This document shows, piece after piece, positions 40,273 to 62,734 of a stretch of 64,000 nt of DNA. Made by a program: the position numbers and the translations under genes. Numbering within the stretch: position 1 is the stretch's first letter; each line of letters starts with the position of its first letter. The notes beneath the pieces were generated by a model. The model was not told the DNA's origin, ran no database searches, and saw only the letters and a list, made by a program, of their open reading frames with translations. Source of the DNA: a virus; IMG/VR virus record IMGVR_UViG_3300037961_005010, positions 1 through 64,000 of that record; one strand, given 5' to 3'.

Positions 40273-41050
40273 ATATTTAAGAAAGTCTATAGGTTTAAAA
40301 TCCAAGAATAAAGTAATATGTGCAAAGTGGGGATCAATATACGATGACTCTTATGTAAATAAACTTTATGAAAAAGTTAAGAAGAACTGTTCTGTAGATT
40401 TTGACTTTGAGTGCTTTACTGAATTTGATGAATCTTGGGAAAAATACAAAAAGAAACATTATAGGGCATCAGTAGATCCTGATCATAGATTTGATACTAT
40501 TCAAAATGGTTATTATAGAGATGATTTTGGAGGCATACCACACTATCGTAAAATAACATTATTTAATGAAGATAGTAAATTTAAAAGTACAGATAGGATT
40601 TTATTTTTAGATTTAGACACTAATATAGAAGGTGACATAGGATATTTTTTTGAAGAATTAAATGATGAAAAACCTTACATAGTTTGGAATTACTGGTGGG
40701 ATGATCCATATTTCAAAGATGGCTATGAATGGAAAAGGCAATATCATATCACTAGGTGCCCGCTGTTTAATAGTTCAGTATTAAGATGGAAACCCGGTCA
40801 AAATAAACCCATATATAATTTTGTAAACAATAATTTAGATAAATGTTTTTTTACCTATCCTTCAATGGATACTTTTATGTTTCATCAGTTTGGTCCCTAT
40901 AGTTCCAAGGAAAGAGCTAACCATTTCCAATATTACAAGGAAGGTATAGTTACTACTAAAAGAGAACTAAAAGAAAATGAAAAACCTGGAATCATCAATA
41001 TGCTGGAAGGTATGACTTTAGAAGAGAAAAGAGATAATGTATCAAGTTGA
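40265..41050 (+). CDS. Glycosyltransferase-like protein with DxD (paralogue B)
   Basis: 261 residues. It must begin at a non-ATG codon: TTG at 40265, 8 bases inside the previous gene; the first in-frame ATG is deep in the fold, past the DxD. VICAKWGSIYDDSYVNKLYE, YYRDDFGGIPHYRKI, LFLDLDTNIEGD and NSSVLRWKPGQNKPI align with paralogue A. It is a tandem duplicate with altered C terminus. Confidence 0.6.
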   Translation: MFKYLRKSIGLKSKNKVICAKWGSIYDDSYVNKLYEKVKKNCSVDFDFECFTEFDESWEKYKKKHYRASVDPDHRFDTIQNGYYRDDFGGIPHYRKITLFNEDSKFKSTDRILFLDLDTNIEGDIGYFFEELNDEKPYIVWNYWWDDPYFKDGYEWKRQYHITRCPLFNSSVLRWKPGQNKPIYNFVNNNLDKCFFTYPSMDTFMFHQFGPYSSKERANHFQYYKEGIVTTKRELKENEKPGIINMLEGMTLEEKRDNVSS

Positions 41051-41669
41051 AGAAGTAGATGTAATACGTTTTTGTGATGTGCTGAGAGCACAAAGATATA
41101 AATCCGATTGGGAAGATTATTGGCAAAATTTGCATGATCAAATGCATGTGAATGAATTTAAAATACAAAAGTGGTGGGCTAATAAAATAGATCTAATAGG
41201 AAAAGAAGTTTCTATTTTAAATTCTGGCGCAGGTTTTTATTCGGTTCCAATGTGTTTCGAAAAAGGAGCTACTTTAGTAAGAACTTATGATATGTGCCCT
41301 GTTACTGATGAAATAGCATGGGAAGCTAATACACATTATCAACCAAACTATATACATTATGTTGAAGACGTAGTTTTTGATAGCCGTAAACTTAAGTGGG
41401 ATTTATCTGATGTTTATATTAATACAAGCTGTGAACATTCTTATCACATGAAAGATGTAATACCTGACGGTGTTGAAGCTGTTGTAAGTAGTAATAACTT
41501 AACAAAAAGAGGACATATAAATAAAGTCAACTCTATACAAGAATTAGTCAAACAATCAGGAATTACTGAAGTAAAGTTTCATGAAGAAATGACACTTGAA
41601 TACCAAGATGAATTAGGACCTAGAGAATATAAACAATTTTTTGTTTATGGATTGAAAGGCAAAAAATGA
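41037..41669 (+). CDS. Methyltransferase-like protein (Rossmann type)
   Basis: 210 residues. VSILNSGAGFYSVPM in place of the SAM loop, TYDMCPVTDEIAWEANTHY as strand 2 and YINTSCEHSYHMKD as motif IV-like region suggest a class I methyltransferase fold, though the glycine motif is atypical. It could be inactive or act on another nucleotide-like ligand. Coupled on both sides. Confidence 0.5.
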   Translation: MYQVEEVDVIRFCDVLRAQRYKSDWEDYWQNLHDQMHVNEFKIQKWWANKIDLIGKEVSILNSGAGFYSVPMCFEKGATLVRTYDMCPVTDEIAWEANTHYQPNYIHYVEDVVFDSRKLKWDLSDVYINTSCEHSYHMKDVIPDGVEAVVSSNNLTKRGHINKVNSIQELVKQSGITEVKFHEEMTLEYQDELGPREYKQFFVYGLKGKK

Positions 41670-42559
41670 AAAAGATAATCTTTTCTATATGCATAGACAT
41701 ACCTGAAATATTGCTTGACGAAACTGGCTATTCTAGACACTCTGGTAAAAATCCTTGGAGAGTTGGTAGAGCTGAAGAAACTAAAGACAAATTTGCGGCG
41801 TTTAAAAACTATTTGATGTGGACTCAAAAAGCATATGCTGACGAGATAGATGCAGATTATAGAATGTACTCTTATGATAAAGAGTTTATAGACTATTATG
41901 TTTATTGCAAATCTGTGCATGAAAATCTACCAATGTATCATATAATAAATTATTATAAAAATCATTTATTACAAAAATTATCATATGACTATGATGCTGT
42001 GTTTTATGTAGACATTGATGTTATACCCAGAACAGATGAAGATATTTTTAAAGTTCATGACATGAATTATCTGTATGCTAAAAATAATAATGATTTAGCT
42101 GAATGGGGTAAAAAAATGGACCTCACTAAATATAACAGTTGCGATAGAAATCCAGCTATAAAATATTGGAACTGCTACGCTTTATTATTAGAAGAAGGTT
42201 ACCATCCTGAAAATGACGTGATAAACACAGGCACTGTGATAGGAGGATCTGAAGTTATTCAATCAATGGATTGGATAGGTGAGTTTGAAGGATTGATCAA
42301 AAAATTAAAAGACTTGCAAGAGCAGAAAGTAACAATGTTTCCTGAAGCTATCTTTAGTAGATTTGCTTTTGATAATGAAACTATGTTTAGTTACTTGGTC
42401 AATTCTAAAAAAATAAAATATAAAAGTTTATCAGATGAATGGCACGGTAGATTACCTGATGATGAAATAGATCCTAGCCATAAAATGATTCATGCTATAA
42501 ACAAAAAGTTTGAGCTTATATGGCCAGAGGTAGATTATCAGGGAAGAAGTTTTACATGA
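41666..42559 (+). CDS. Glycosyltransferase-like protein (297 aa)
   Basis: YDAVFYVDIDVIPRTDEDIF has the DxD motif flanked by aromatic strands as in GT-A folds. ENDVINTGTVIGGSEVIQSM resembles the acceptor-side 'N.G' loop, and FPEAIFSRFAFDNETMFSYL is a helical pocket. N-terminal KIIFSICIDIPE is a Rossmann-like strand. Related distantly to genes at 39574 and 42556. Confidence 0.55.
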   Translation: MKKIIFSICIDIPEILLDETGYSRHSGKNPWRVGRAEETKDKFAAFKNYLMWTQKAYADEIDADYRMYSYDKEFIDYYVYCKSVHENLPMYHIINYYKNHLLQKLSYDYDAVFYVDIDVIPRTDEDIFKVHDMNYLYAKNNNDLAEWGKKMDLTKYNSCDRNPAIKYWNCYALLLEEGYHPENDVINTGTVIGGSEVIQSMDWIGEFEGLIKKLKDLQEQKVTMFPEAIFSRFAFDNETMFSYLVNSKKIKYKSLSDEWHGRLPDDEIDPSHKMIHAINKKFELIWPEVDYQGRSFT

Positions 42560-43215
42560 AAATTTTCTGTTTAAGGATAGGTGATAAGTACGGTCCTGAA
42601 TATGAAGATTACATTAATAAAATGCTGGATGATTATGAAGTTGTTTGGATAAGAGAAGCAGTTAGTAAATCTATACCATTACAATGGAATAAAATACAGT
42701 TTATGAATTTAGATACCGATGATCCAATAGTTGTTTTGGACATAGATATAATCTTAAGAAAAGACTATAAAGAATTATTTGAATATCCGATTGAAAGAGG
42801 AGAGTTTCTTAGTATACCAGCTTGGTGGAATAGTAAATATCCTAAGTGGAAAATAAACGGAGGATTTCAAAAATACTATCCGAGAGATTGTAAATATATC
42901 TATGAAGCTTTTATGAAAAATCCAAAACATTGGATGATGCACTATATAAAGCAAGGACTAACAATAGGACCAGTTAACGGCGAACAGTTTTTTGTAGAAG
43001 AACATGTAAAAGATCATTTAGATTTAAAGTTAATTCCTAAGTCTTGGGTAACTAGATGGACTCCGGATGACACTATTAATAAGCACATAGAACTTAAGTG
43101 GGAAGAGTTTAATGATTCTAAATTAATAGAAGATGAAGAGTTTAATTCTGACATAAAACTTATACACTTCACTAGTTCTTTAAATAAACCTCATCTTACT
43201 TCTTTATGGAAATAA
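42556..43215 (+). CDS. Glycosyltransferase-like protein (219 aa)
   Basis: The ATG at 42556 overlaps the previous stop (ATGA); an upstream in-frame ATG at 42520 is less likely. IVVLDIDIILRKDYKELF holds the DxD motif; SIPAWWNSKYPKWKINGGF and FTSSLNKPHLTSLW follow. It ends the second island, 25 bp before a late promoter. Confidence 0.6.
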   Translation: MKIFCLRIGDKYGPEYEDYINKMLDDYEVVWIREAVSKSIPLQWNKIQFMNLDTDDPIVVLDIDIILRKDYKELFEYPIERGEFLSIPAWWNSKYPKWKINGGFQKYYPRDCKYIYEAFMKNPKHWMMHYIKQGLTIGPVNGEQFFVEEHVKDHLDLKLIPKSWVTRWTPDDTINKHIELKWEEFNDSKLIEDEEFNSDIKLIHFTSSLNKPHLTSLWK

Positions 43216-45727: not shown

Positions 45728-46339
45728 ATGAGTTGTAATACGTCAGAAAATTTTATACTAAAATCGGGTTTAGAAGTAGCAGATTCAGCTACTTTTAACG
45801 GCGTTGTTGATATATCCAATTTATCAGTTACTGATATCAATGGTATAGGTTTTCCAGATTCTGCAGGTGGAAGTGGTGACGTATTAATATCAGATGGAAC
45901 GTCTAACCTTACATATAGAGATGTTTCAAGCTTACTGTTCAACGCGATAAATGGTTCTAGCAACAGTAACTACATACTTAAAACTGATGGCTCCGGGACA
46001 ATGGAGTATGTTTCTTTAATTAACTTGCTTGTGCAGTTAGTAGGAAACTATGATTCTGGAGACATTATAAAAATTGATGGATCAGGTAATCTAGACTTTG
46101 ATTCCATTATAAATATATTATTATCAGCTCTAGGCGGGAATGGAAACCCTGATCAAGTCATAAAGACTGATGGATCTGGCAATCTTTCCTACGCAGATTT
46201 AGAAGATATTCTAGGATATAGGTTTAATCTCGGATCTGGTGCTGAAGACGGTGATTTACTTATTTACGATTCAGCAAATGAAGAATTTAGATTAAGCAGA
46301 ATATCGGAACAACACATAATTAACGGAGGCCAATACTGA
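45728..46339 (+). CDS. Repeat-containing fibre protein (203 aa)
   Basis: It carries three copies of a unit like IKTDGSGNLSYADL (about 93, 125, 153), each followed by a short hydrophobic helix (INLLVQLVG, INILLSALGG). This suggests a repetitive fibre shaft. ATGA-coupled to the large fibre gene. Confidence 0.6.
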   Translation: MSCNTSENFILKSGLEVADSATFNGVVDISNLSVTDINGIGFPDSAGGSGDVLISDGTSNLTYRDVSSLLFNAINGSSNSNYILKTDGSGTMEYVSLINLLVQLVGNYDSGDIIKIDGSGNLDFDSIINILLSALGGNGNPDQVIKTDGSGNLSYADLEDILGYRFNLGSGAEDGDLLIYDSANEEFRLSRISEQHIINGGQY

Positions 46340-48126
46340 TGGCAACAATTATTAGAATAAAAAGGTCTAGTACCGCTGGGAATCCAGCAACGCTTGCTGC
46401 AGGGGAAATGGCCTATTCGAGTCTCGCTGGTGGAGTTAACAACGGCGGGGACAGATTATACATAGGTACAGGTACTGAAACGAATGGTGATGCAGCAAAT
46501 CATGAAGTCATAGGTGGTAAGTATTTTACCAGCATGATGGATCATGCACCTGGTACTTTAACAGCTAGCAGCGCAATATTAGTTGACTCTAGCTCAAAAA
46601 TAAACATGTTAAAAGTTGACAACATTCAACTTGACTCATCAACAATAGATACTTTGGACGGCAATGCCCTTAAAATGGGTCAGCAGGTCAATATGGAGTC
46701 TAACAAGATTATTAATCTTGGAACTCCTTCTGCTGGTACTGATGCTGCAACAAAAGCATATGTTGACGGAATAACTGGTGGTGGTTCTATTACACTTCAA
46801 GGTGCTGGTGATACTGGCACTGTAAACGTCAGCCTTGCTGATTCAGCTCTTTCCGTATTAGGTGGCACGGGCTTAACATCAACAGCTACAGGCACAGCTA
46901 TAACCGTAAATCTAGACAATACTGCTGTAACTGCAGGTAGTTATGGTTCTGCAACAAGTGTACCAGTACTTACAGTTGACGCACAAGGTAGAATTACAGC
47001 TGCATCAACAGCTTCAGTTTCATCAACTCTAAACGTAAAATCTGGTCAGGCTGGCGGTGATTCATCAGACATATCACTTATAGATTCTGCATTAACATTT
47101 GGAACAGGTACTGGTATTGATGTTTTTGTAAGTGGCGCAACTGTAACATACTCAGCTGAACTTGCTACTACATCAAATATCGGTGCGGCTTCATTTAACG
47201 GTAATGATTTTAATGTTGTAGCTGGCGCGGTATCTCTTTCAGGTAACATCGGTGGAGCATCAATTCCATTACAATTCTTAGTCGACGGCGGTGACAGCGC
47301 AGTTGCTTCTGGAGGTGCCATTACAATTAATGGTGGAGAAGGAATAGATGTTGTTGCTCCTACAGCTAACTCAATTAGGGTTGACGCTGAAGACGCTAGT
47401 ACGACTAACAAAGGTGTTGCATCCTTTGCAACAGCGAACTTTACAGTCTCTTCTGGAGCGGTTTCTGCTAAGGACATAACACTAGGTTCTACTACTTTAA
47501 GTTTAGGTGGTTCAACTACTACACTAGCAGGATTAACACAAATCGATGTTGACAATGTTAGAATCTTAGATAACACGGTTGGTTCTACAAGTGGAACACT
47601 CTTTATCGACCCAGCTCCTCTAGATTCTGATGCTGGTACAGTTATTGTACGAGGTGACTTACAAGTTCAAGGTACAACTACAACCATCAACTCAACAGAA
47701 GTTAATATCGGTGATAAAAATCTTAACTTGGCTGATTCAGCGGATAACAATGGAGAAGCTGATGGTGCTGGTCTTACAATCGGATCGAGTTCTTACACTG
47801 GAACTAAACCAGCATTTGTATACGACGGTGCTACCGATAGATGGGATCCAAACAAACCTTTAGATATTCCACACGCTTCACTAGACAGCGCAGTTTTCTT
47901 AAACGGTGTTGGACTTGGAGAAAGAATTGAAGATCATTTAGCCAATTCATTCTTACAAGCAGGCGAAGGTATCGATCTAAACTATGTCGATGGATCAAAT
48001 CAACTTACAGTTGCTGCCGAACTAGCTACAGTTTCTAACCCAGGTGTAGCATCATTTAGTTCTGATAACTTTACTGTCACAACCGGTGAAGTTACTATAA
48101 CAACAATAGACGGCGGAACCTTCTAA
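46339..48126 (+). CDS. Tail fibre protein, Mtd_N-like, 595 aa
   Basis: N-terminal IIRIKRSSTAGNPATLAAGE, AYSSLAGGVNNGGDRLYIGT is the major tropism determinant N-domain type that attaches phage fibres. The middle repeats NVxGxxxSSxxxxG units and ends with the DLQVQGTTTTINSTEV, then IGDKNLNLAD, module shared with 43277. Gly/Ser/Asp-rich, probably trimeric. Downstream is a strong terminator. Confidence 0.7.
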   Translation: MATIIRIKRSSTAGNPATLAAGEMAYSSLAGGVNNGGDRLYIGTGTETNGDAANHEVIGGKYFTSMMDHAPGTLTASSAILVDSSSKINMLKVDNIQLDSSTIDTLDGNALKMGQQVNMESNKIINLGTPSAGTDAATKAYVDGITGGGSITLQGAGDTGTVNVSLADSALSVLGGTGLTSTATGTAITVNLDNTAVTAGSYGSATSVPVLTVDAQGRITAASTASVSSTLNVKSGQAGGDSSDISLIDSALTFGTGTGIDVFVSGATVTYSAELATTSNIGAASFNGNDFNVVAGAVSLSGNIGGASIPLQFLVDGGDSAVASGGAITINGGEGIDVVAPTANSIRVDAEDASTTNKGVASFATANFTVSSGAVSAKDITLGSTTLSLGGSTTTLAGLTQIDVDNVRILDNTVGSTSGTLFIDPAPLDSDAGTVIVRGDLQVQGTTTTINSTEVNIGDKNLNLADSADNNGEADGAGLTIGSSSYTGTKPAFVYDGATDRWDPNKPLDIPHASLDSAVFLNGVGLGERIEDHLANSFLQAGEGIDLNYVDGSNQLTVAAELATVSNPGVASFSSDNFTVTTGEVTITTIDGGTF

Positions 48127-48135
48127 TAATATAAC

Positions 48136-48160
48136 AGCCGGAGTTTTTACTCCGGCTTTA
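48136..48160 (+). terminator. Rho-independent terminator after the fibre operon
   Basis: AGCCGGAGT (48136-48144), loop TTTT, ACTCCGGCT (48149-48157), then TT. A perfect 9-bp G+C-rich stem 9 bases after the stop at 48126, the only strong terminator seen in the window. Confidence 0.8.
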
Positions 48161-48186
48161 AACACTACCTTTTTTAAGGATTAAAA

Positions 48187-49695
48187 ATGACAAGTACTAT
48201 TAAGCTTAAAAAATCCAGTGTCTCTGGAAATAAGCCAGGCACAAGCGATTTAGAATATGGCGAATTAGCCATTAACTTCGCGGACGGCAAATTATTTTAT
48301 AAAAACAGCTCTAATCAAATTAGATCTTTTGTTGATTCAGGCCTCGTCCAATCTCTTTCTTTAGATAGTTCTGAAGTAATTAATCTAGTTGACTCAGCAT
48401 ATGTTCAAGCTAGACAGACAGTTTCCACATTCGATTCAGATTCAGTAACTAACTTAGTTGACTCAGCATATATTCAAGATAGGCAAATGGGTGTTGGATT
48501 TAACCTATATGAATATAATGCTACTGACAATCAAACTACATTTGAAGATTCAGATATAGCAGGAAATGTGTTATCTTATAGTCAAAATAATATTTTAGTT
48601 CACTATAATGGTGTTTTATTGTCAACGACTGAATATACAGCAACTGACGGATCTTCAGTTGTTTTAGACGATGCTGCTGATTCCGGTGCTATTATAATGA
48701 TAGCACGTTGGAAAGAAGGTGGCCAAGATAGTGCCTCTGGAAGTTCGGGCTCATATGGTGGAGGTGGATCTTCTGGTGGTAGTGGAAATGCTTGGAGTGG
48801 TGATAGAGGACTTATTGGTGGTGGTGAGACCGCAAACAATGGAACGTCAGTAAACGTAATTAATTATATTGATATTACAACTACAGGCAATGCTCAAGAC
48901 TTTGGCGATCTAACGGGTACAAGAGAATCTCTTGGAGCATTAAGTAATCAAACAAGAGGTGTATTTTGTGGTGGTAATTCCGATGGTGCGCGTTCAAATG
49001 TAATGGATTATGTAACAGTAGCGACTACAGGCAACGCTCAAGATTTCGGTGACCTTACGTCTACAAAAAACGCGGTGACAGCAAGTTCCAATGGTACAAT
49101 AGGGATAATTGCAGGTGGTCTTGGAAGTGGTAGCTACCCAAATAATTATAAAAATGAGATAGAAAGTATTACAGTTGCAACGACAGGAAACGCAACTGAT
49201 TTTGGTGACATGACTTATCAAGCTCAAATGCCAACTTCTTTTGCTGACGCAACAAGAGGTGTTATTGCAGGAGGATATAGCACAGCTGCAGCGGGCGATG
49301 TGACAATGAATTATATTACTTTTGCTTCAGCAGGCAATGCTCAAGACTTTGGAGATCTTTCTCAAGGAAGATATCGTTTAGGAAGCTGTTCCGATTCAAC
49401 TCGCGGCGTAACAGCAGGAGGTGGAACGGCTTCATCAAACGGTGTAAATACAATGGATTATGTAGCTATTCAAACAACAGGAAACGCAGTTGACTTTGGC
49501 GATCTTACACAAGAGCGACAAACAAGCGGAATGGCTAATGCTACACGTGGAGTTTTTGCAAGTGGTGATACTAATTCAACATTTTATAATGTTCTTGATT
49601 ATATAACTATTCAAACAACAGGAAACGCTGCAGATTTTGGAGACAATACTGATACATATGGCAAGACTGCTTCATGTTCTGGAAGTGCTTCATAA
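48187..49695 (+). CDS. Tail fibre with six-repeat propeller tip (class A)
   Basis: 502 residues. An Mtd_N-like start (TIKLKKSSVSGN), a stalk with two VDSAYVQAR-type units, an NGVLLSTTEYTATDGSS module, a Gly/Ser linker, then six copies of an about 45-residue repeat ending xTGNAxDFGDLT. It ends SGSAS. The exact six copies suggest a six-bladed beta-propeller, probably the receptor-binding tip (inference). First gene after the terminator; no clear own promoter is visible. Confidence 0.65.
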   Translation: MTSTIKLKKSSVSGNKPGTSDLEYGELAINFADGKLFYKNSSNQIRSFVDSGLVQSLSLDSSEVINLVDSAYVQARQTVSTFDSDSVTNLVDSAYIQDRQMGVGFNLYEYNATDNQTTFEDSDIAGNVLSYSQNNILVHYNGVLLSTTEYTATDGSSVVLDDAADSGAIIMIARWKEGGQDSASGSSGSYGGGGSSGGSGNAWSGDRGLIGGGETANNGTSVNVINYIDITTTGNAQDFGDLTGTRESLGALSNQTRGVFCGGNSDGARSNVMDYVTVATTGNAQDFGDLTSTKNAVTASSNGTIGIIAGGLGSGSYPNNYKNEIESITVATTGNATDFGDMTYQAQMPTSFADATRGVIAGGYSTAAAGDVTMNYITFASAGNAQDFGDLSQGRYRLGSCSDSTRGVTAGGGTASSNGVNTMDYVAIQTTGNAVDFGDLTQERQTSGMANATRGVFASGDTNSTFYNVLDYITIQTTGNAADFGDNTDTYGKTASCSGSAS

Positions 49696-49704
49696 GGAAA
49701 CGTA

Positions 49705-49712
49705 TATAAATA
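49705..49712 (+). promoter_or_regulatory. Late promoter TATAAATA before 49735
   Basis: Exact late box 9 bases after the stop at 49695 and 22 bp before the ATG at 49735. Probably drives the following run of fibre genes. Confidence 0.65.
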
Positions 49713-49734
49713 TAAGTAAAAGTGAGAAATAAAA

Positions 49735-50484
49735 ATGCCAAGTTCAATAAATAGACATATTGCTAATTTAGCTCCAGCGATAGATAGTGCTAGTCCTGGT
49801 GATTTCTTAGGTATACATGATAATGGCGGCGGTAATTTTCATCATCAGATAGAAGCAGTTTTTGAAGTTGCGGCTAATGGATCATCTGCTTATACGTTTA
49901 CTGGATCTGGTTTTTCTTCAGGTGTAGATAACCCTACGTTATATCTTCAAAGAGGAGTAAAGTACAGGTTTAATTTAAATCAATCTGGACACCCATTTCA
50001 AATCAGAGTATCAGATGGAGGCAGTGCTTATAGCACTGGTGTAGTAAATAATGGTCAGAGCGGACCAGGAACAGTTACGTTTATTCCTGACATGGGTGCA
50101 CCAAACTCATTAGTTTATCAGTGTACATCTCATGCTGGAATGGTCGGCGACATTATCATTTTAGATAATACTTCATTCTTAGATTCAGCTGCAGCAACAA
50201 GTTTAATTGATTCTACATATGTAGCAGCCAGAGCTGGTGGCGCAGGTGGTGGTTTGGATTCAGCTGGTGTTACTGGAATAGTTGATTCAGCATATGTTGC
50301 TGCAAGATCTAGCGGCGGCGGTGGTGGTGGATCAGGATTCGCTACTGTTAACGTAGCATCTCAAAATTTAACATCCAACATAACAATAGCTGGAAATCAG
50401 AACGGATTATCAGTCGGACCGGTAATAATAGACAGTGGAGTTACAATCACCGTTAATGATGGTGCTAGATACGTGGTAGTTTAA
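49735..50484 (+). CDS. Fibre protein with a cupredoxin-like domain
   Basis: 249 residues. Residues about 40-142 form a beta-sandwich with His86 (SGHPFQI) and Cys130, His133, Met136 (YQCTSHAGM): His plus C-x2-H-x2-M, the type 1 copper ligand set and spacing of amicyanin. After it come two VDSxYVAAR units, a Gly-rich linker and a C-terminal LTSNITIAGNQNGLSVGPV tip module common in cyanophage fibres. It shares the N-terminal adaptor with the class A fibres. Copper binding is inferred from ligands. Confidence 0.65.
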   Translation: MPSSINRHIANLAPAIDSASPGDFLGIHDNGGGNFHHQIEAVFEVAANGSSAYTFTGSGFSSGVDNPTLYLQRGVKYRFNLNQSGHPFQIRVSDGGSAYSTGVVNNGQSGPGTVTFIPDMGAPNSLVYQCTSHAGMVGDIIILDNTSFLDSAAATSLIDSTYVAARAGGAGGGLDSAGVTGIVDSAYVAARSSGGGGGGSGFATVNVASQNLTSNITIAGNQNGLSVGPVIIDSGVTITVNDGARYVVV

Positions 50485-50485
50485 A

Positions 50486-51646
50486 ATGGCTGGACCCTTA
50501 AAAAGCGACATCATTCAGGTAAACTCAGGAACTGATCCAGTAGAATTTCCTCAAGGAATTACGATCGATAACAAAGAGTTAAGCGATCCTAGTTTAGCTG
50601 TTTCAATTATAGATTCAACAGGATTTCCAGATAGCGCTGATTGGGTAAATGGCCAACTTTGGTACGATAGTGCTAACAGTCACATGAACATATACACTCC
50701 AGATGGTTGGAGAACATTTGCCGGTGGATATGCAGTTCCTAGAGATGTAGGTCCTAATAGTGGAGACAGAGCAATTGTCTTTAATGCTTCTTCTGGTACT
50801 GGTGCTAATTATGGAAATAAAATTGAGTACTTTGACATAACTTCCACAGGTAACGCAGCGTCATTTGGTATAATGACTACTGCTAATGGCCAGTCTGGGC
50901 CTCACGGTGCAATTAGTAATGGCACTTATTGTATTAATGCTGAAACAAGAGCTCCATCCACTGGTTATTATGAGCTTGAGTATGTAGTTTCAGCAACAAC
51001 AGGTAACGCTCAAGATTTTGGATCTTTAGCTAGTTTAGCTTATTCAGGAAAATCTGGAGTCAGCGATGGAGCTTCCGGATATTACACAGGAAGTAATCAA
51101 ACAACCTCACAAATAGAAACACTTAACCTTGCAACTCAAAGTGATGCATCACTTGATTCATACACATCAGTTAGAAAACAAAACGGAGCTGCTTGGGCAA
51201 CTATAACTGGAGCGAGAGGAATATGGGCAGGTGGAACCAGCTCTACTACTTACTCCAATGAAATGTTTTACTTAGCATTACCAATTGTGGCTAACTCTAC
51301 AGACCGTGGTGATTTGACAGTTGGAAGAAACTACCCTGTAGCAGGTGGAAATGACGACTATATGGTTATAGGAGGGGGGTGGACTGGTTCTGCCAGTAAT
51401 GTCATAGATTACACAACAATGGGAACTTCAGGAAACGCAGTTGACTTTGGCGACTTAACTGTTTCAAGATACGCTGGTTGTTCTACTAACACGACAAGAT
51501 CATGTTTTATGGGTGGTTATAACGGTTCAACTAGAGTTAACACTATAGACTATATAACTATAGCTACTCCGGGAAATGCTTATGACTTTGGAGATATGAC
51601 GGATGGTGGAAATCATGCTAGAGGTACTTCAGGAGCTGCGTCATGA
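50486..51646 (+). CDS. Tail fibre with six-repeat propeller tip (class B)
   Basis: 386 residues. A short N terminus, an ADWVNGQLWYDSANSHMNIY, TPDGWRTF module that looks like a small beta domain, then six repeats, the second and third degenerate (for example ATQSDASLDSYTSVRKQ), the last ATPGNAYDFGDMT. Ends SGAAS. Only one base separates it from the cupredoxin-like fibre. Confidence 0.6.
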   Translation: MAGPLKSDIIQVNSGTDPVEFPQGITIDNKELSDPSLAVSIIDSTGFPDSADWVNGQLWYDSANSHMNIYTPDGWRTFAGGYAVPRDVGPNSGDRAIVFNASSGTGANYGNKIEYFDITSTGNAASFGIMTTANGQSGPHGAISNGTYCINAETRAPSTGYYELEYVVSATTGNAQDFGSLASLAYSGKSGVSDGASGYYTGSNQTTSQIETLNLATQSDASLDSYTSVRKQNGAAWATITGARGIWAGGTSSTTYSNEMFYLALPIVANSTDRGDLTVGRNYPVAGGNDDYMVIGGGWTGSASNVIDYTTMGTSGNAVDFGDLTVSRYAGCSTNTTRSCFMGGYNGSTRVNTIDYITIATPGNAYDFGDMTDGGNHARGTSGAAS

Positions 51647-52845
51647 GTCAAGTTAGAGTAGAAAGAATAGTTTCACTGAACGACTCTGCTGCGCCGGATT
51701 TTCCTACTGGCTTTACCGTTACAGGACAAACTTTAGATGAGAAATATCCAAAAAACATATTTGTAAAAGGTGTCGTAGATTCATCTGGTACTCCTGAAGA
51801 TAGTAGTAGCGGGCTTTATTGGTGGAACGCAGATCATGATAGTGGAAAAGGTCTCCTTGCAGTTAATGTGAAGGGAAGTTGGATAGGTGTAACTAAATAT
51901 GTAGAACCTCCAGTTCCTACTCCAGGTTGGTTAGGAAATAGAGCTCACTTAGCAGGTGGAGCTTTTCCAAATGATAGTACTATACAATACTATGACATTA
52001 CTACACCAGGAAACTCTACAGACTTCGGAGACTTAACATCTAATTTTTGGGGTAAAGGTACAGCATCAAGTGGTACAACAATTGTAAGCGCAGGTGGAAA
52101 TAGATATGATGGAAGTTATACTACTGGAAATCAAATCGACACTTGGACTTCTGCTACTCCGGGAAATGCAACTGATTTTGGTGACTTAAGTCAAGGTAGA
52201 CAAGACGTCGCTGCTACAGGCGATGGAACCTATGGTATTTGGGGCGGAGGCAGAACTGGTAACTCTAGCACTACTTATGTAAATACTATAGACTATGTGA
52301 CAATAGCTTCCGCCGGAAACGCAGCAGATTGGGGAGATTTAACAATTTCAAGATGGGGTTTATCAGCAGGAGGAGATGCAACTCGAGGACTTTACATAGG
52401 TGGTAAGTATCCGTACGATTATGGTGGTTCCTCTCCAGATCCTCAACAATCTAATGTAGTAGATTATATTACATACGCAACAGCTGGAAACGCAGTTGAC
52501 TTTGGAGATATGTTAGAGGCACATGAGTTAGCTCAAAACGGAATGGTTACGTCTGCAACGAGATCTCTAAGAGGCGGAGGAGAAAACACATCAACTAGTT
52601 CTATAGAGTACTATACAACTGCAACAACCGGTAATGGTACTGACTTTGGAGATTTAACTGCTAATAGATATCATTTAGCAGGAGCAAGCAACGGAACTTA
52701 CGGAACATTTGCAGCAGGAACAACTGGAAGCTATTCAAATGTAATAGAATATGTAACAATAGCAACTACAGGAAATGCTATAGATTTCGGTGACACCTAT
52801 GCTGCTAAATACGCGCTTTCAGGCGCAGCGGGGAATGCATCATGA
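51643..52845 (+). CDS. Tail fibre with six-repeat propeller tip (class B)
   Basis: 400 residues. Class B module with LYWWNADHDSGKGLL, then six clear repeats from TTPGNSTDFGDLT to ATTGNAIDFGDT. Ends AGNAS. Overlaps neighbours as ATGA on both sides, so the three genes 50486, 51643 and 52842 are translationally coupled. Confidence 0.65.
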   Translation: MSQVRVERIVSLNDSAAPDFPTGFTVTGQTLDEKYPKNIFVKGVVDSSGTPEDSSSGLYWWNADHDSGKGLLAVNVKGSWIGVTKYVEPPVPTPGWLGNRAHLAGGAFPNDSTIQYYDITTPGNSTDFGDLTSNFWGKGTASSGTTIVSAGGNRYDGSYTTGNQIDTWTSATPGNATDFGDLSQGRQDVAATGDGTYGIWGGGRTGNSSTTYVNTIDYVTIASAGNAADWGDLTISRWGLSAGGDATRGLYIGGKYPYDYGGSSPDPQQSNVVDYITYATAGNAVDFGDMLEAHELAQNGMVTSATRSLRGGGENTSTSSIEYYTTATTGNGTDFGDLTANRYHLAGASNGTYGTFAAGTTGSYSNVIEYVTIATTGNAIDFGDTYAAKYALSGAAGNAS

Positions 52846-53837
52846 GTAAATTAAAAGTAGATAAAATATTCGGATCAAATAGCACAACAAAGCCTAATTT
52901 TCCACATAGTCTTGTTGATGGTTCATCTAAATTAGGAGGCGGCAGTTTTGTTGCCGATACGAATGCAAATTTTCCACTTTCAGCCGAATCAGGTGGAACT
53001 AGCCTGGCTGGTGATTTCTTTTATGATACAACCTTTAACAATCTTTTTATGTACATAAACGACTCTATTGGCTATGAGAACATAAGTCTTACAGATTCTG
53101 CAGACGCCGCAGCCGGGCCTGGTTTGATTTATGTAGGTAAGGAGCAGTGGACTACGACTAATGGTAATACAGGAACTTTTACTTTTTCTAATTTGGATGA
53201 GGCAAACGGAACTAACTATACAGTACAAGCAGGAGACTTGATAGTTTTAGTTTTTGGTAGAGGTAATACATCTGGATACTACATTAGTAACACACCTTCA
53301 GACGAACTTGGTAACTTCACATTTCTATCCGGTGCTAAAATGGGAGGAAGTGATTCTTATGATCATGATCACGCTATATTCTACAGATACGTTACTGCTA
53401 GTGACATTTCAACTGGATCTGTAAGTCATCATCCTGATAACTACGGCACTCCTTCCTATCAAGCGTGCGCTTTTCACTTTTTAGTTTTTAGAGGTGTAAC
53501 TGGAATTGATAATGGAAAAGGCACCCAATATAACAATAATTCTCGTTATCAAAATACTAATTATAATCAGACAACTCTCGATGCCGCGGGTCAATTTATC
53601 ATTTTTTCAGCTGCTAATGGTTGGTACAGCAGTAGTGGAGTTCACACTACAGCTAGTTCAAATTATGAAACTGATCCTGGCCAAATTTCAAATTATGTTA
53701 ACGACACTGATGATATTAACATGCAGACTTGGATCTATAAATCGACTGCGGCTGAAACTTGGGGCAATCCTAGCTTTTCATCACCTTCAACCACATCATC
53801 ATCTGATTCAACACTAGTTTCATGCAGGGTGTACTAA
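52842..53837 (+). CDS. Fibre protein without propeller (331 aa)
   Basis: The N terminus (KLKVDKIFGSNSTTKPNFPH) and an FFYDTTFNNLFMYINDSIGY module match class B fibres, but the C-terminal 230 residues are a different beta domain (VQAGDLIVLVFGRGNTSGYY, ACAFHFLVFRGVTG, AGQFIIFSAANGW). Several Tyr/His-rich loops could bind sugars. A tip-domain swap on a shared base is the likely explanation. Confidence 0.6.
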   Translation: MSKLKVDKIFGSNSTTKPNFPHSLVDGSSKLGGGSFVADTNANFPLSAESGGTSLAGDFFYDTTFNNLFMYINDSIGYENISLTDSADAAAGPGLIYVGKEQWTTTNGNTGTFTFSNLDEANGTNYTVQAGDLIVLVFGRGNTSGYYISNTPSDELGNFTFLSGAKMGGSDSYDHDHAIFYRYVTASDISTGSVSHHPDNYGTPSYQACAFHFLVFRGVTGIDNGKGTQYNNNSRYQNTNYNQTTLDAAGQFIIFSAANGWYSSSGVHTTASSNYETDPGQISNYVNDTDDINMQTWIYKSTAAETWGNPSFSSPSTTSSSDSTLVSCRVY

Positions 53838-53838
53838 T

Positions 53839-55023
53839 ATGTCAACATTAAAAACAAATAAAATATCTGGAGTAGTTTTAACGACAACCGAAGCTCCGTT
53901 TGATGTTCAGATTGGGCCCAACTCTTTACCTCGAGCTTTTACAATAAATTTTACAGTAGATAGTACAGGTGCTCTACCTGATTCTGCTGGAGCAGGTGGC
54001 ACTGCTGAAATAGGACACTGGTTTTATGATTCTACAGGTGATTCTACTAATGACATTTTAAAGTTTTATGTCAATGATTCTATTGGCTGGGTTAACTTAG
54101 GTTTGACAGATTCTGCTGTGACAGCTGCCACCCCGGCCTCTTGGATGGGTGATAGAGCTCTTTTTCAACAAAGTACGAATCCTGCCAATCACGTAGACTA
54201 CTTGTCTATAGATACTCTAGGTAATGGAGCAGACTTTGGTGATGATTATTTAAACAGGAATTCATGTGCTGGAACATCAAATGGATCTAGAGGATTATTT
54301 TTTGGTGGAAACTCTAGTGGTTATTATACAAAAATAACATATTATACGATTGCTGTAGCAAGTAACTATACAGATTTTGGAAGTATGAACGCTCCGGGCT
54401 CACGATACGGGGATGCTGTAGGAGATGGTACATACGCAGTTGCAAGCAACGGTTACAGCACAAGCCATGCTGCTATGGATTATGTAACAGTAGCTACTAC
54501 AGGAAATGGAACGGACTTTGGAGATTTAACTGTACCTGGCACACAGTTAGCCGCTGCAAATGATGCGACCCGTGGTCTTTTTATGGGAAGATACTACGGT
54601 AGTACTCAACAAAGTGTTATCGACTATATAACAATTGCAACCCCTGGGAATGCTGTTGATTTTGGCGATCTTGCTACTCCAAGAACTCGATTAGCTATGG
54701 GGATTGGTGATGAAACATATGGTATATATGCTGGAGGTTATAACGGAAGCGCCCGTGAAGAAGACATAGACTATGTTACTATACAAACTCTTGGAAACAT
54801 GACAGCTTTTGGTAACTTAACTTCAATTAGAAGCCAATCGGGAACGGCTAACAGTCCAACAGTTGGAGGTACAGGCCGAGGCTTGTTTGCTGGAGGTTAC
54901 ACCACAACTCAAGTATCGTCTATAGATTATATAACAACTTCTTCTACAGGAAATGGTGCTGACTTCGGCGATCTAACTTATTCACTGAGTAATATAGCTG
55001 GTTGTGCTGGATCTAGTAGTTGA
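53839..55023 (+). CDS. Tail fibre with six-repeat propeller tip (class B)
   Basis: 394 residues. Class B base (HWFYDSTGDSTNDILKFYV, NDSIGWVNLGL), then six repeats: DTLGNGADFGDD, AVASNYTDFGSM, ATTGNGTDFGDLT, ATPGNAVDFGDLA, QTLGNMTAFGNLT, SSTGNGADFGDLT. Ends GSSS. Shares NDSxGW with 52842 and 55038. Confidence 0.65.
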   Translation: MSTLKTNKISGVVLTTTEAPFDVQIGPNSLPRAFTINFTVDSTGALPDSAGAGGTAEIGHWFYDSTGDSTNDILKFYVNDSIGWVNLGLTDSAVTAATPASWMGDRALFQQSTNPANHVDYLSIDTLGNGADFGDDYLNRNSCAGTSNGSRGLFFGGNSSGYYTKITYYTIAVASNYTDFGSMNAPGSRYGDAVGDGTYAVASNGYSTSHAAMDYVTVATTGNGTDFGDLTVPGTQLAAANDATRGLFMGRYYGSTQQSVIDYITIATPGNAVDFGDLATPRTRLAMGIGDETYGIYAGGYNGSAREEDIDYVTIQTLGNMTAFGNLTSIRSQSGTANSPTVGGTGRGLFAGGYTTTQVSSIDYITTSSTGNGADFGDLTYSLSNIAGCAGSSS

Positions 55024-55037
55024 ATTAGGAGTTAAAA

Positions 55038-56285
55038 ATGTCAACACTTAAAACCTCTAAATTATCTGGCATAGTAGACGCTAAGCTTGGGATTAAAGTA
55101 AACAATAGAAACTTAAAGGCTAACTTTCATGTAGATAGTTCTAGTGGTGCACCTTTGTCAGTAGACTCAGGAGGTAATGCTCAACCAGGAGACTATTTTT
55201 GGGATTCAGATAACAGTTCTTTAAAGGTTTACGTAAACGATAGTTATGGGTGGACTAATATTGGTTTGACAGATTCTTCAGGAGCAGGACCTTCAAACGC
55301 AGACACTGCATTTATATTAGGTGGAATCTATTACTTTTCATCTGGATCTGGAAATTGGAATGTGCCAGACAACAATATTGAACAGATTAATTTTGAAACT
55401 TTAGGAAACGCTACAGACTTTGCTGATTTTACTATTACAGGTACGACGGACCCTTACGGATATCCACGAAAAGGTGTTGCTGAAATAGTAGCTGGTGGCG
55501 ATCATAATAGAATTGTAATGGGCGCAGCTAGCGTTACAAATGTTAGTCATCAGACTGGTGACTTTGAAACTGGCATTGGCATACATTATATAACGTGTGC
55601 AACTGCAGCCAATTCAACTCAGTTTGGTAATTTACAATCAGCGTCATATCACAATGAAATGGGCGGTGATGGTGGAAATGGAGTTATGCACTTTAGAAAT
55701 ACTGGTAGTCAATCCTTTACTACTTTGCAACAAGTTACAATTCAAACAACTGGAGATGCTACTGACTTCATAGATTTACAAATGACAAATATGTCATATG
55801 GTGGAGTAAGCACAAACGATACTAGAGGCATTGCCTTTGGAGGTAGACGAAGCAATTATTACGAGTCTCACATAGATTATTTTACTCCTGGAAATGCATC
55901 AGTAGCAGCTGCTGACTTCGGTGATCTTATAACAGGTAATAATAAACCAGCAGTAACAAACGACAATTTAAATAGAACAGTTTATGCTGATATGTACCAA
56001 GGGACGCTTAGCTCAACATCTGGCTCAGTATCAAATACTATAAGCTATATTGACACTGCTACTCCGAGCAACGCTGCAGATTTTGGCGACTTAACAGTAT
56101 CACAGCAAGGTATGGGTGCTTCAGCCAGTAATACTAGAGCTGTATTTTTTGGAGGATCAATAAACACCGGAGTCAATGCTGATACTACTATATGCTACGT
56201 AACAATAGCTACGCCAGGTAACGCATCTGATTTTGGCGATTGCTCACCTAGAAGAGAAACGACTGGTTCTGAAGGAATAGGCTAA
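55038..56285 (+). CDS. Tail fibre with six-repeat propeller tip (class B, EGIG subtype)
   Basis: 415 residues. Class B base (GDYFWDSDNSSLKVYVNDSY), then six repeats of which the fourth is FTPGNASVAAADFGDL. VAEIVAGGDHNRIVMG and GIHYITCAT are shared with the gene at 62735, and both end SEGIG. Closest paralogue of 62735 although 7.7 kb away. Confidence 0.65.
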   Translation: MSTLKTSKLSGIVDAKLGIKVNNRNLKANFHVDSSSGAPLSVDSGGNAQPGDYFWDSDNSSLKVYVNDSYGWTNIGLTDSSGAGPSNADTAFILGGIYYFSSGSGNWNVPDNNIEQINFETLGNATDFADFTITGTTDPYGYPRKGVAEIVAGGDHNRIVMGAASVTNVSHQTGDFETGIGIHYITCATAANSTQFGNLQSASYHNEMGGDGGNGVMHFRNTGSQSFTTLQQVTIQTTGDATDFIDLQMTNMSYGGVSTNDTRGIAFGGRRSNYYESHIDYFTPGNASVAAADFGDLITGNNKPAVTNDNLNRTVYADMYQGTLSSTSGSVSNTISYIDTATPSNAADFGDLTVSQQGMGASASNTRAVFFGGSINTGVNADTTICYVTIATPGNASDFGDCSPRRETTGSEGIG

Positions 56286-56315
56286 AAATTTAATTTTATT
56301 CTTTCATCATAACAA

Positions 56316-56332
56316 TATAAATACTATAAATA
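56316..56332 (+). promoter_or_regulatory. Tandem late promoters TATAAATA
   Basis: Two exact late boxes, 56316-56323 and 56325-56332, one base apart, 22-38 bp before the ATG at 56355. Only site in the window with two adjacent exact boxes. Confidence 0.7.
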
Positions 56333-56354
56333 AGAGAGAAGTTAGGAATAGAAA

Positions 56355-57974
56355 ATGGTGACAAACAGAAAGCTCGCTGACTTAGGTTCTGCAGTAGACA
56401 GCGCGGCTACTGGTAATTTTCTCACAGTTGATGATTCTGGAGGTAAGTTCAGATCGATAGCATACTCAGAGATAGCTAGTAGACCAACTGTTTTAGATTC
56501 AGCTGCAGCTCAAGCTATAATAGACTCATCTTATATTCAAGCGAGACAGACAGACGTAGGGCTAGATTCGAGTCAAATTACGAGTTTAGTCGACTCTTCA
56601 TACATCACTGCTAGACAATCTACAACAGGCTTAGATTCAGCCGGTGCACTTAATCTAGTAGACTCTGCATATCTCTCAGCAAGATCAACAACAGGTTTAG
56701 ACTCATCAAAAGTAACTAATTTAATAGACTCAGATTATATATCTGGAAAAGCTGCAGTAAATTCAGGTTTTAAAACTTTTACATATTTTGCTTCAGATGG
56801 GCAAACAGACTTTTCAGGATCTGATTATAACGGTGAGGTTTTGTCTTACACCGCAGATGGTATTATAGTCTGGCTTAATGGCGTGCAGATACTTGATACT
56901 GATGACTACACAGCTTCTAATGGAACAAGCGTTGCTTTAACGGCCGGTGCTGATTCAGGAGCAAGTTTAGTTGTAGGCAGCTGGGCGCTAGGAGGAAGTG
57001 GCAGTAGCGGTGGAGTTTTTTATGGAGACAGGGCTTTTATAGGTGATGGTACATCAGGTACTCCTGCTGATGGACAAGTAGATTACTTTGATATAACAAC
57101 TACATCAAACGCTGCTGACTTTGGAGATTTCCAAACCACCAGTACAAACACTATTAATCATTCATGTTCTGTAAGTAATGCTACAAATATAGTTTTTTAT
57201 GAGCAATCAACTAACGCAGGTAGTTCTAATGACTACCAAACAATATCAGTAATAACATGTGCAACTGTAGGGAACGCATCAGACTTCGGTGATCAGTATC
57301 ATTATAGGTATGGCTCTGGTGGTGCATCAAATGGTGTGACTGGAATGTTTGCAGGTGGTTGGGGTCGACCAGGATCAAACAGTGGAGCGACAGCTGCCCC
57401 ATTAGATGAGATTGATTATGTGACAATAGCCACGGCCGGAAACGCTACAGATTGGGGAAGTACTCTTTCATCTGGAAGATACGGAATGACTAATGCCGGA
57501 ATAAGCAATGCAGATAAAGCCGTATATGTAGGAGGTGCTATTGGCGCTCCATCTTATGCAGCTCAAAATACAATAGAAACTTTTACATGGACTGTCGGAT
57601 CAAGTGCTACAGATTTTGGAGATTTAACATCAGGAACTTTAGATCACGCATGTGCTCAAAGCACTACGAGAGGATTAATTGCTGGTGGTACATCTGGCAC
57701 TCTTAGTAACGCATATAATACTATAGAATACATAACAATAGCTTCTCCAGGAAATGCTACAGATTTTGGTGATTTGACTACAAACAAATCTAGAAATGCT
57801 GGGTGTAGTAACACGACTAGAGCAGTGTTTGGAGGAGGTTTTTCAGCTTCTCCTATAAATGAAGTAAACGTAATCGAGTATGTAACAATTGCAACTACAG
57901 GCAATGCTCAAGATTTTGGAGATTTGACTACAGTAAAAGACCGCTGTTTCGCTGATACTGGAAATGCGTCATAG
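56355..57974 (+). CDS. Tail fibre with six-repeat propeller tip (class A)
   Basis: 539 residues. N-terminal adaptor RKLADLGSAVDSAATGNFLT, then a stalk of about four DSxYIxAR units, the NGVQILDTDDYTASNGTS module (T7-fibre-like), and six repeats from TTTSNAADFGDF to ATTGNAQDFGDLT. Ends GNAS. Driven by the tandem late boxes. Confidence 0.65.
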   Translation: MVTNRKLADLGSAVDSAATGNFLTVDDSGGKFRSIAYSEIASRPTVLDSAAAQAIIDSSYIQARQTDVGLDSSQITSLVDSSYITARQSTTGLDSAGALNLVDSAYLSARSTTGLDSSKVTNLIDSDYISGKAAVNSGFKTFTYFASDGQTDFSGSDYNGEVLSYTADGIIVWLNGVQILDTDDYTASNGTSVALTAGADSGASLVVGSWALGGSGSSGGVFYGDRAFIGDGTSGTPADGQVDYFDITTTSNAADFGDFQTTSTNTINHSCSVSNATNIVFYEQSTNAGSSNDYQTISVITCATVGNASDFGDQYHYRYGSGGASNGVTGMFAGGWGRPGSNSGATAAPLDEIDYVTIATAGNATDWGSTLSSGRYGMTNAGISNADKAVYVGGAIGAPSYAAQNTIETFTWTVGSSATDFGDLTSGTLDHACAQSTTRGLIAGGTSGTLSNAYNTIEYITIASPGNATDFGDLTTNKSRNAGCSNTTRAVFGGGFSASPINEVNVIEYVTIATTGNAQDFGDLTTVKDRCFADTGNAS

Positions 57975-57996
57975 TAAAGTTTAAAGGAAAGTAATA

Positions 57997-59553
57997 ATGG
58001 GTTTAAGTAGAAAATTAGCTGATCTAGGTAAATTCATAGATTCTGCCGCCACGAGTGACTTCTTAACGGTTGACGATTCAGGCGGTAAGTTTAGAGATGT
58101 TTTATGGACAGAGATAGCTGGAAAACCAACTACTCTAGACTCTGCGGCTGCACAAGCGATTGTGGACTCGGCATATGTCCAGGCCAGACAAGTTGACGTA
58201 GGCCTAGACTCAGCATTAGTAACATCATTAGTAGACTCATCTTACGTTCAAGCAAGGCAGGGCGACGTAGGCCTAGACTCAGCAGGAATAACTGGAATTG
58301 TAGACTCAGCATATGTAAATGCTAGAATAACTTCTGGTCTCGATTCAGCTGGAACGATAAGCTTGGTAGACTCTACTTATGTAGATGCAAGAACAACTGC
58401 TAACTCAGGATTTAAGAACTATAGGTACACAGCAACAGCTGGTCAAACCGCGTTTACTAACTCAGATGAAAATGGTAGTGTGTTATCTTATTCTGGCGAC
58501 GCCTTACTTGTTTTTTATAACGGTGTTGTTCTGGAACCTACGGTTGACTATAGTACTTCAGGAAGTAACACTGTAACTTTGACAGAAGGTGCAGATTCTG
58601 GAGTTTCTGTGAACGTTGCAACGTGGACAATTCAATCAAGCGGCGGTAGTACCTCTTTTTGGGGTGGAGATAGGGGACTTCTTGGTGGAGGAGATACTGG
58701 AGGCTCGCCAGGAACTAATGTTATTGATTATTGGGATATTACATCATCAGGAAATGCTACTGACTTTGGTGATTTAGTTAGCTCAAAGCACAGTATGTCA
58801 GATGGTACTGGTAATACTACTCGAGGAGTATTTTGTGGAGGTTATGTCGGTTCAACGTTTACAACTGTAGATGAGATTGATTATGTAACTGTTTCAACAA
58901 CAGGCAACGCTCAAGATTTTGGCAATTTAACTACTGGATCATATGTAGGAGCTACAGCAGGTAATGGAACTTATGGTGTAACTGCTATAGGTTATGATAA
59001 TGGAGCTACTGTTGTAAATACTTTAGATTACTTTACGATTGCCACCACAGGAAACGCATCAGACTTTGGTGATTTAACAACAGCTAGATACGCAACGGCA
59101 GGAGCTGAAAACGGTACTTATTCGTTATACATGGGTGGACAGTCACCGATAACTAATGTCGTTGACTATATAACCGTAGCTTCTCCAGGAAATGCTACTG
59201 ACTTTGGTGATCTGACTCAAAGCCTTCGTGGTGGGGCGGCTTGTGCTGATGCTACTCGAGCGGTTGTTGGCGGTGGATTTGACAGTTCTCCAGGAAGAAC
59301 TAACGTGATGGAGTATTTTACTGTTGACACCCCAAGTAACGGCACAGATTTTGGCGATTTGACAAACTCTATCAATAGCTCCCATGCTTGCTCTAACACT
59401 ACTTATGGCACATGGGCTGGAGGTAGCGATAATTCTGGTTCGGTTAATGTTATTCAAATTGTGACTATTCAAACAGCAGGGAATGCTACTGATCACGGGG
59501 ATCTAACATCATCACGGAACGGCGGGGCAGCATGTTCAGGCGCCGCTTCATAA
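57997..59553 (+). CDS. Tail fibre with six-repeat propeller tip (class A)
   Basis: 518 residues. Same order as its upstream neighbour; the stalk contains two nearly identical copies of a 23-codon unit (DNA repeated at 58195 and 58264). NGVVLEPTVDYSTSGSNT replaces the usual DYTAS module, then six repeats up to QTAGNATDHGDLT. Ends GAAS. Confidence 0.65.
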   Translation: MGLSRKLADLGKFIDSAATSDFLTVDDSGGKFRDVLWTEIAGKPTTLDSAAAQAIVDSAYVQARQVDVGLDSALVTSLVDSSYVQARQGDVGLDSAGITGIVDSAYVNARITSGLDSAGTISLVDSTYVDARTTANSGFKNYRYTATAGQTAFTNSDENGSVLSYSGDALLVFYNGVVLEPTVDYSTSGSNTVTLTEGADSGVSVNVATWTIQSSGGSTSFWGGDRGLLGGGDTGGSPGTNVIDYWDITSSGNATDFGDLVSSKHSMSDGTGNTTRGVFCGGYVGSTFTTVDEIDYVTVSTTGNAQDFGNLTTGSYVGATAGNGTYGVTAIGYDNGATVVNTLDYFTIATTGNASDFGDLTTARYATAGAENGTYSLYMGGQSPITNVVDYITVASPGNATDFGDLTQSLRGGAACADATRAVVGGGFDSSPGRTNVMEYFTVDTPSNGTDFGDLTNSINSSHACSNTTYGTWAGGSDNSGSVNVIQIVTIQTAGNATDHGDLTSSRNGGAACSGAAS

Positions 59554-59565
59554 GGAAATAAAAAA

Positions 59566-61122
59566 ATGGCTTTTAGTAGAAGTAGAAAATTAGGTAACTT
59601 AGGTAAGTCGATAGATAGCTCGGCACTAAGCGATTTCTTAACGGTTGACGACTCAGGTGGTAAGTTTCGCGATGTACAATATTCCGAAATAACTGGAAAG
59701 CCTACTCTACTAGACTCTTCAACTCTTTCATCTCTCGTAGATTCATCTTATATTCAATTAAGACAAACTGATGTTGGAATTGATTCCGGTCAAATTACTA
59801 ATTTAGTTGACTCATCTTACGTTCAAGCAAGACAAGGTGCTGGTGGTTTAGACTCAGCTAAAACTACTAACTTAATTGACTCATCTTACGTAGCTGCAAG
59901 AATAACAGCTGGATTAGACTCATCTTCTACAATAAACTTAGTAGATTCAGATTATGTAGGAGCTAGAACATCTGCTAATTCTGGTTTTACATACTACAAG
60001 TATACATCAACAGCAGGACAAACTGCTTATACTGGTGCTGATGATAATGGAGAAACATTATCTTACAGTACATCTACTGACAATATATTAGTTTTTTATA
60101 ACGGCATTTTGCTCATACCAACAGATGATTATACAACTTCTGGTGGAGACACTGTAACTCTTACTACTGCAGCAGATTCTGGTTCTCCAGTGACAATAGG
60201 AAGATGGGCTGTTGCTGCTCCGGCCGGTAACTTTATATCTTGGGGTGGAGCTCGAGCTTTGACTTTTATGCAAGGACAAACTAACGGTGACGCGATAAAT
60301 TATTTTGCTATGGCAACACCAGGAAATGCTTCAACTTTTGGTACTACATCAGGTGTTTCAAACGATGGCGGTAGTGCAGTTTCTGACGCAACATATGCAG
60401 TGTTTGCCGGTCACACTAATAGTACATCATATGACGATGTTCAATATGTAACAGTATCTACACTAGGCAATACTTCTACTGGAATGGTTATAGATCCTTA
60501 TGATGACATGGGATCAGCTTCTGATGGTACTAATGCTTTTTATTTTGGTGGATATAGAACAAATCCTTGGTTAAACAAAATTCAAAAGTTTTCTATATCT
60601 ACATTTTCAGGAACGGCATCAGATTTTGGTGATCTAGTAGAAGGTTTACTAGGCCTATGTGGTTTTGGAAATACTGATAGAATCATAGCAGCTGGTGGCA
60701 GCGCATATGCAAACTTGTATAGAAACACTATACAATACTGGAACCCTTCATCATCCACAAACGCATCAGACTTTGGCGATTTAAATTTTAGTACACACAG
60801 TCTTGGTGGATGTAGCGATTTAACGAGAGGTGTAGTGGGAGGAGGTTATAATGGATCTTCATATGAAAATAGCTTAGATTATGTTACTATAGCGTCTACA
60901 GGTAATGCTACAGATTTTGGAGATTTAAACTATTCAAGATCAGGAACAAAATCTGCTGGAACTGATGGTGTATACGGCGTATTTGCTGGAGGTTATAACG
61001 GCAGTGCTAGAGATGACGGAATAAATAGAATTACCATTCAAACAACCGGAAACTCCACAGACTTTGGTAATTTAACTGAAGGTGGTTCAACGGCTTCTAC
61101 AACAGCAGGTAATGCTTCATAA
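59566..61122 (+). CDS. Tail fibre with six-repeat propeller tip (class A, degenerate first repeats)
   Basis: 518 residues. Adaptor SRKLGNLGKSIDSSALSDFL, stalk of DSSYxxAR units, NGILLIPTDDYTTSGGDT, then six repeats. The first two have lost the DFGDLT core (ATPGNASTFGTT, STLGNTSTGMV), the last four are typical. Ends AGNAS. Confidence 0.6.
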   Translation: MAFSRSRKLGNLGKSIDSSALSDFLTVDDSGGKFRDVQYSEITGKPTLLDSSTLSSLVDSSYIQLRQTDVGIDSGQITNLVDSSYVQARQGAGGLDSAKTTNLIDSSYVAARITAGLDSSSTINLVDSDYVGARTSANSGFTYYKYTSTAGQTAYTGADDNGETLSYSTSTDNILVFYNGILLIPTDDYTTSGGDTVTLTTAADSGSPVTIGRWAVAAPAGNFISWGGARALTFMQGQTNGDAINYFAMATPGNASTFGTTSGVSNDGGSAVSDATYAVFAGHTNSTSYDDVQYVTVSTLGNTSTGMVIDPYDDMGSASDGTNAFYFGGYRTNPWLNKIQKFSISTFSGTASDFGDLVEGLLGLCGFGNTDRIIAAGGSAYANLYRNTIQYWNPSSSTNASDFGDLNFSTHSLGGCSDLTRGVVGGGYNGSSYENSLDYVTIASTGNATDFGDLNYSRSGTKSAGTDGVYGVFAGGYNGSARDDGINRITIQTTGNSTDFGNLTEGGSTASTTAGNAS

Positions 61123-61133
61123 GGGAATCATAA

Positions 61134-62711: not shown

Positions 62712-62734
62712 TAAAGCTTAAAGGAAAGTAATAA

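Follow-up and report, generated by a model that had tools for sequence, protein, structure and literature searches.

A tail-fibre protein of a T4-like phage with a predicted type 1 copper cupredoxin domain, a module reused across marine phage virion proteins

We describe a short fibre protein, encoded by a marine T4-like phage, whose globular part is predicted to be a cupredoxin carrying a complete type 1 copper site. In our preferred reading, to which we give a probability of about 0.6, the protein is a short tail fibre or adaptor in which this domain, a module reused among phages, acts as a metal-clamped structural joint. The gene lies within the first 64,000 nucleotides of IMG/VR record IMGVR_UViG_3300037961_005010, the whole stretch analysed here and referred to as the window (Table 1). 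From its N-terminus, the protein consists of an adaptor, the beta-domain and two stalk units; a run of glycines then leads into a short tip at the C-terminus. The adaptor (about the first 35 residues) and the stalk units are common to sibling fibres, which lack the intervening beta-domain, while the last 45 or so residues are similar to the end of the PHROG 5342 tail-fibre family. Cys130 is the sole cysteine of the protein. The original prediction, made from the sequence alone, had named His86, Cys130, His133 and Met136 as ligands with a C-x2-H-x2-M spacing and had proposed a fibre adaptor, stalk units and a tip around them; the numbering and spacing proved correct on the sequence of the open reading frame, and the three fibre parts were recovered by sibling alignment and by the match to PHROG 5342.

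Table 1. Features of the fibre gene and its product, in window coordinates
Feature	Position	Strand	Basis
Fibre protein, 249 aa	49735..50484	+	Open reading frame starting with ATG
N-terminal adaptor, aa 1-37	49735..49845	+	Alignment with the starts of sibling fibres at 56355, 57997, 59566 and 61134
Cupredoxin domain (predicted), aa 40-144	49852..50166	+	AlphaFold2, Foldseek, VIA-align, PHROG 677
His86, first copper ligand (predicted)	49990..49992	+	Invariant in 142/142; aligned to the ligand His of plastocyanin 1b3i
Cys130, copper ligand (predicted)	50122..50124	+	Plastocyanin alignment, family conservation
His133, copper ligand (predicted)	50131..50133	+	Plastocyanin alignment, family conservation
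Met136, axial copper ligand (predicted)	50140..50142	+	Plastocyanin alignment, family conservation
Two stalk units LDSAxxxxxVDSxYVAAR, aa 149-197	50179..50325	+	45-71% identical to the other fibre stalk units of the record
C-terminal tip, aa 201-249	50335..50481	+	PHROG 5342 tail fibre C-terminus, 9.7e-5

Structure prediction assigns residues 40 to 144 to the cupredoxin fold with high confidence. An AlphaFold2 model of the domain alone, built with an alignment of 68 relatives, comprises eight strands and reaches a pLDDT of 93.3 and a pTM of 0.85; in the full-length monomer model, residues 40-144 are the only confident part (pLDDT 88-97). Foldseek returned 52 PDB chains at E<=0.001, mainly of cupredoxin fold. 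The majority are from type 1 copper or multicopper proteins, and the matches include rusticyanin, nitrite reductase, plastocyanin, amicyanin, laccases and a pseudoazurin with an engineered amicyanin loop. The best VIA-align match was the N-terminal domain of the nitrite reductase of Hyphomicrobium (Z 11.8, rmsd 2.5, 98 residues), and Z was about 10 against small laccases and rusticyanin. In the model, His86 stands immediately ahead of strand 88-91 and Cys130 closes strand 125-130; the loop from there to strand 137-143 contains His133 and Met136. This arrangement along strands and loops matches the cupredoxin layout. The predicted structure, which had been proposed as a check on whether the ligands come together, is favourable for the fold and for the strand positions of the ligands. 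Together with an alignment to plastocyanin 1b3i, these models support the idea of a beta-sandwich of about 100 residues with a complete predicted type 1 ligand set.

The relation to cupredoxins was revealed by profiles and structure, not by single-sequence searches. As a single query, the fibre protein matched nothing in Pfam, including the plastocyanin/azurin family PF00127, or in NCBIfam, and phmmer against PDB gave nothing meaningful. PHROG 677, annotated as 'baseplate wedge tail fiber protein connector', matched residues 42-144 (5.3e-31), with the match confined to positions 307-410 of its 412. A family profile of 22 sequences found plastocyanin 1b3i as its top PDB match (E 1.8e-4), the His, Cys, His and Met ligands falling in the same alignment columns, and lower matches to more plastocyanins, auracyanin, nitrite reductase and amicyanins (E 0.003-0.01). 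Weak matches to PF00127 were present in 17 of the 68 relatives, the best at 4.8e-4. When the ligand columns were masked, the profile gave no significant cupredoxin match in PDB, which indicates that homology at the sequence level rests mainly on the site itself; descent from cellular cupredoxins would accordingly be argued from fold plus site. Two further likenesses were noted. PF25489, a plant At5g54830-like domain, matches 28 of the 68 relatives (best 1.3e-5) and may be cupredoxin-like too, and BFVD contains weaker fold matches to 'beta-sandwich proteins' of the Marseillevirus LCMAC and Pithovirus LCPAC genomes.

The four ligands are conserved to a degree that shows selection on the site, far beyond a chance motif. 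Every one of the 142 distinct domains gathered from all loci keeps His, Cys, His and Met, and in a set of 17 non-redundant, divergent domains (25-41% identity to the domain of this fibre) they are the only invariant letters. That this conservation is a product of the search motif was rejected on two grounds, seeds lacking Cys, His and Met and a ligand-blind profile. The seeds of the control scan lacked Cys, His133 and Met136, and one of its two patterns contained His86; it yielded 66 distinct domains. Of these, 65 extend into the loop and every one has Cys, His and Met intact, and residue 132, which lies between conserved ligands, was occupied by seven different letters. The profile with all four ligand columns masked gathered 139 domains, 137 of which read HCHM directly and 138 of which contain the site: an apparent 'TCHM' was a slipped alignment in which the His is in fact present, and the second open reading frame of locus L192 was the one true loss. 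Extended to whole phage records, the masked profile returned the same conservation and one clearly degenerate copy, in ACG-2014j (1702-residue frame). S-PM2 likewise retains a degenerate remnant without part of the ligand set (1253-residue frame) and no intact copy.

The original prediction had presented the domain as an unusual feature of one fibre. On the contrary, tblastn located it in 296-301 of 50,697 phage records, mostly from Synechococcus and Prochlorococcus phages. It forms the C-terminal 100 or so residues of gp9-type connectors in S-SSM4, S-SSM7, syn9 and S-SM1, lies close to the fibre start in S-SCSM1, Sf-CH8 and P-GSP1, and is internal to very long virion proteins in MED4-213 and P-HM2; four matches were counted in each of P-SSM2, P-HM2 and MED4-213. 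Among 116 complete open reading frames from the loci collected, related sequences included, the domain is C-terminal in 61, near the N-terminus in 35 and internal in 20. Marine T4-like phages use this module repeatedly, in their baseplate connectors, fibres and giant virion proteins, and so do some podoviruses. PHROG 677 (cyanophage gp9) corresponds to residues 42-144 of the fibre through its C-terminal 104 positions, whereas the rest of the connector is missing from our protein, which is equipped instead with an adaptor, stalk and tip of its own. No copy was found in the records of T4, P-SSP7 and pelagiphage HTVC008M, and since S-PM2 has only a degenerate copy, the domain is dispensable. Scans of 84,980 genomes for cellular copies gave six loci. 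The three with neighbours read (L203, L204 and L207) are phage structural gene blocks inside marine MAGs, misbinned phages catalogued under marine archaea or Flavobacteriales, and with these seeds no cellular donor was found.

The source record comprises 121,083 bases and contains T4-like baseplate genes, and the fibre gene holds its single cupredoxin-type match. The nearest match to its gp6 comes from phage C48C1 (39%), with a pelagiphage and methylophages next, and no psbA/psbD-type gene was found in the 121 kb. Given these relatives and the missing photosystem-type genes, the host is a marine or aquatic bacterium and need not be a cyanobacterium; the phage itself is T4-like and marine, but it is no clear case of a cyanophage. 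C48C1, the closest isolate by gp6, has one copy of the domain with all four ligands. The fibre gene belongs to a tandem array of at least 10 fibre genes that occupies 46339-63988 and, beyond the window, runs on to 65.7 kb or further in the record. Several array members share the N-terminal adaptor and LDSAxxxxLVDSxYVxxR stalk units and differ in their distal parts, which consist of TTGNAxDFGDLT repeats, one of them matching a kelch-type model (5.3e-7); the array is possibly a receptor-binding repertoire. Elsewhere in the window, a QueC-like protein of the 7-deazaguanine pathway is encoded at 38346-39026, inside the structural gene region (2.9e-7), and two clusters beside structural genes, at 426-4641 and 39020-43215, look methyltransferase- and glycosyltransferase-like by eye.

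Compared with type 1 cupredoxins such as plastocyanin, pseudoazurin, rusticyanin and the N-terminal domain of three-domain nitrite reductase, the phage domain has the same Greek-key sandwich of about 100 residues and the same order and register of His, Cys, His and Met, but it is part of a virion protein and has no signal peptide. Its ligand loop is shorter than that of plastocyanin and has the C-x2-H-x2-M form of amicyanin. Amicyanin, however, works in the periplasm, where it carries electrons for methylamine dehydrogenase, and the phage domain has no such context: the protein is not an exported carrier, as it starts with a fibre adaptor and its gene sits among tail-fibre genes. Another difference concerns the residue after the first His, which is Pro87 here (Pro in 139 of 142 domains) and Asn in the plastocyanin/azurin group. 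Pro also follows His in the HPxHLHG motif of multicopper oxidases. A literature search found no publication joining a phage tail or baseplate with a cupredoxin or plastocyanin-like protein, subscription papers lying outside its reach, and none of the family libraries searched (Pfam, NCBIfam and PHROG) names the domain a cupredoxin. As a family, these short-loop virion cupredoxins are apparently undescribed, although domain databases such as InterPro may already assign the fold.

Regarding function, we infer a structural joint role, over catalysis or signalling, because the domain is found at the ends of connectors, at the starts of fibres and, in the present protein, in the segment joining adaptor to stalk. 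The N-terminal peptide would dock the fibre on the virion as in the sibling fibres, and the metal would most likely hold the C-terminal ligand loop against the sandwich, producing a rigid, protease-resistant joint. The bacterial cytoplasm offers almost no free copper, so loading would probably follow lysis, outside the cell. The suggestion that the domain senses envelope components was not borne out, as its position is close to the N-terminal, virion-proximal end, after the adaptor and before the stalk; this makes a structural module likelier than a tip sensor, and of the options first put forward, the use of copper only for stability is in our view the likelier. A very stable, metal-clamped joint or adhesion module is therefore favoured over a redox sensor. 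The C-terminal placement in about half of the open reading frames counts against the joint reading, since it also fits a receptor-binding tip, and so do the dispensability of the domain and the loss of significant sequence similarity to solved cupredoxins on masking of the ligand columns.

It is unlikely that the type 1 site instead trades electrons with the host surface, or presents copper to it, and in this way gates adsorption or fibre movement. Type 1 sites are established electron-transfer centres and the domain is frequent in cyanophages, but the phage studied here is not clearly a cyanophage, its fibre protein lacks a second redox domain that could act as a partner, and the site lies near the virion-proximal end of the fibre. 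A more specific form of this idea ties the site to light-dependent adsorption. S-PM2, reportedly a classic light-dependent adsorber (Jia et al. 2010), speaks against it, having no intact copy. In its favour, the several copies in P-HM2, which has been reported to be unable to adsorb in the dark (PMC7112961), contrast with their absence from P-SSP7, which infects in the dark. The link is unsupported, given the state of the S-PM2 copy and a sample of three phages confounded by family.

The identity of the metal is a separate matter. Zinc or iron could serve as the structural clamp in the virion: phage proteins acquire their fold in the cytoplasm, a compartment that offers far more zinc than copper, and iron-binding HxH motifs have been described in phage fibres, with sites proposed in T4 gp37 and marine phages under the 'Ferrojan/Trojan horse' idea (PMC11705849). 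Such sites would have in common with our predicted domain a location on a virion fibre, yet they differ from it in fold and ligands; the phage domain is globular rather than part of a stalk, and copper is the metal to be expected. The set of His, Cys, His and Met, with a Met never replaced in 142 of 142 domains, is the copper-specific type 1 set, and zinc sites do not need Met. We consider zinc or iron improbable and infer copper from the completeness of the ligand set and its invariant Met, which is specific to type 1 copper. Finally, a pure beta-sandwich of cupredoxin descent that has lost metal binding and works in structure or adhesion is very unlikely, for although the domain serves as a fibre module and the degenerate copies in S-PM2 and ACG-2014j exist, nearly all other copies keep the four ligands while identity drops to 25%, and a purely structural domain would be expected to lose some of them.

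In summary, selection maintains a complete predicted type 1 site in hundreds of phages that infect abundant marine cyanobacteria, and the literature searched names no copper centres among known phage virion parts. If copper is bound, these virions would be copper-carrying particles, with effects on fibre stability, host recognition and trace-metal cycling. A bolder and doubtful extension is that marine T4-like virions carry tens of functional blue copper centres, loaded from seawater or the lysing host, for redox- or copper-dependent contact with the host; if true, this would be a copper counterpart to the iron 'Trojan horse' idea and would make virions a viral pool of bound ocean copper. As the domain occurs in cultured cyanophages such as syn9, P-SSM2, S-SSM4 and P-HM2, the copper question is directly testable.
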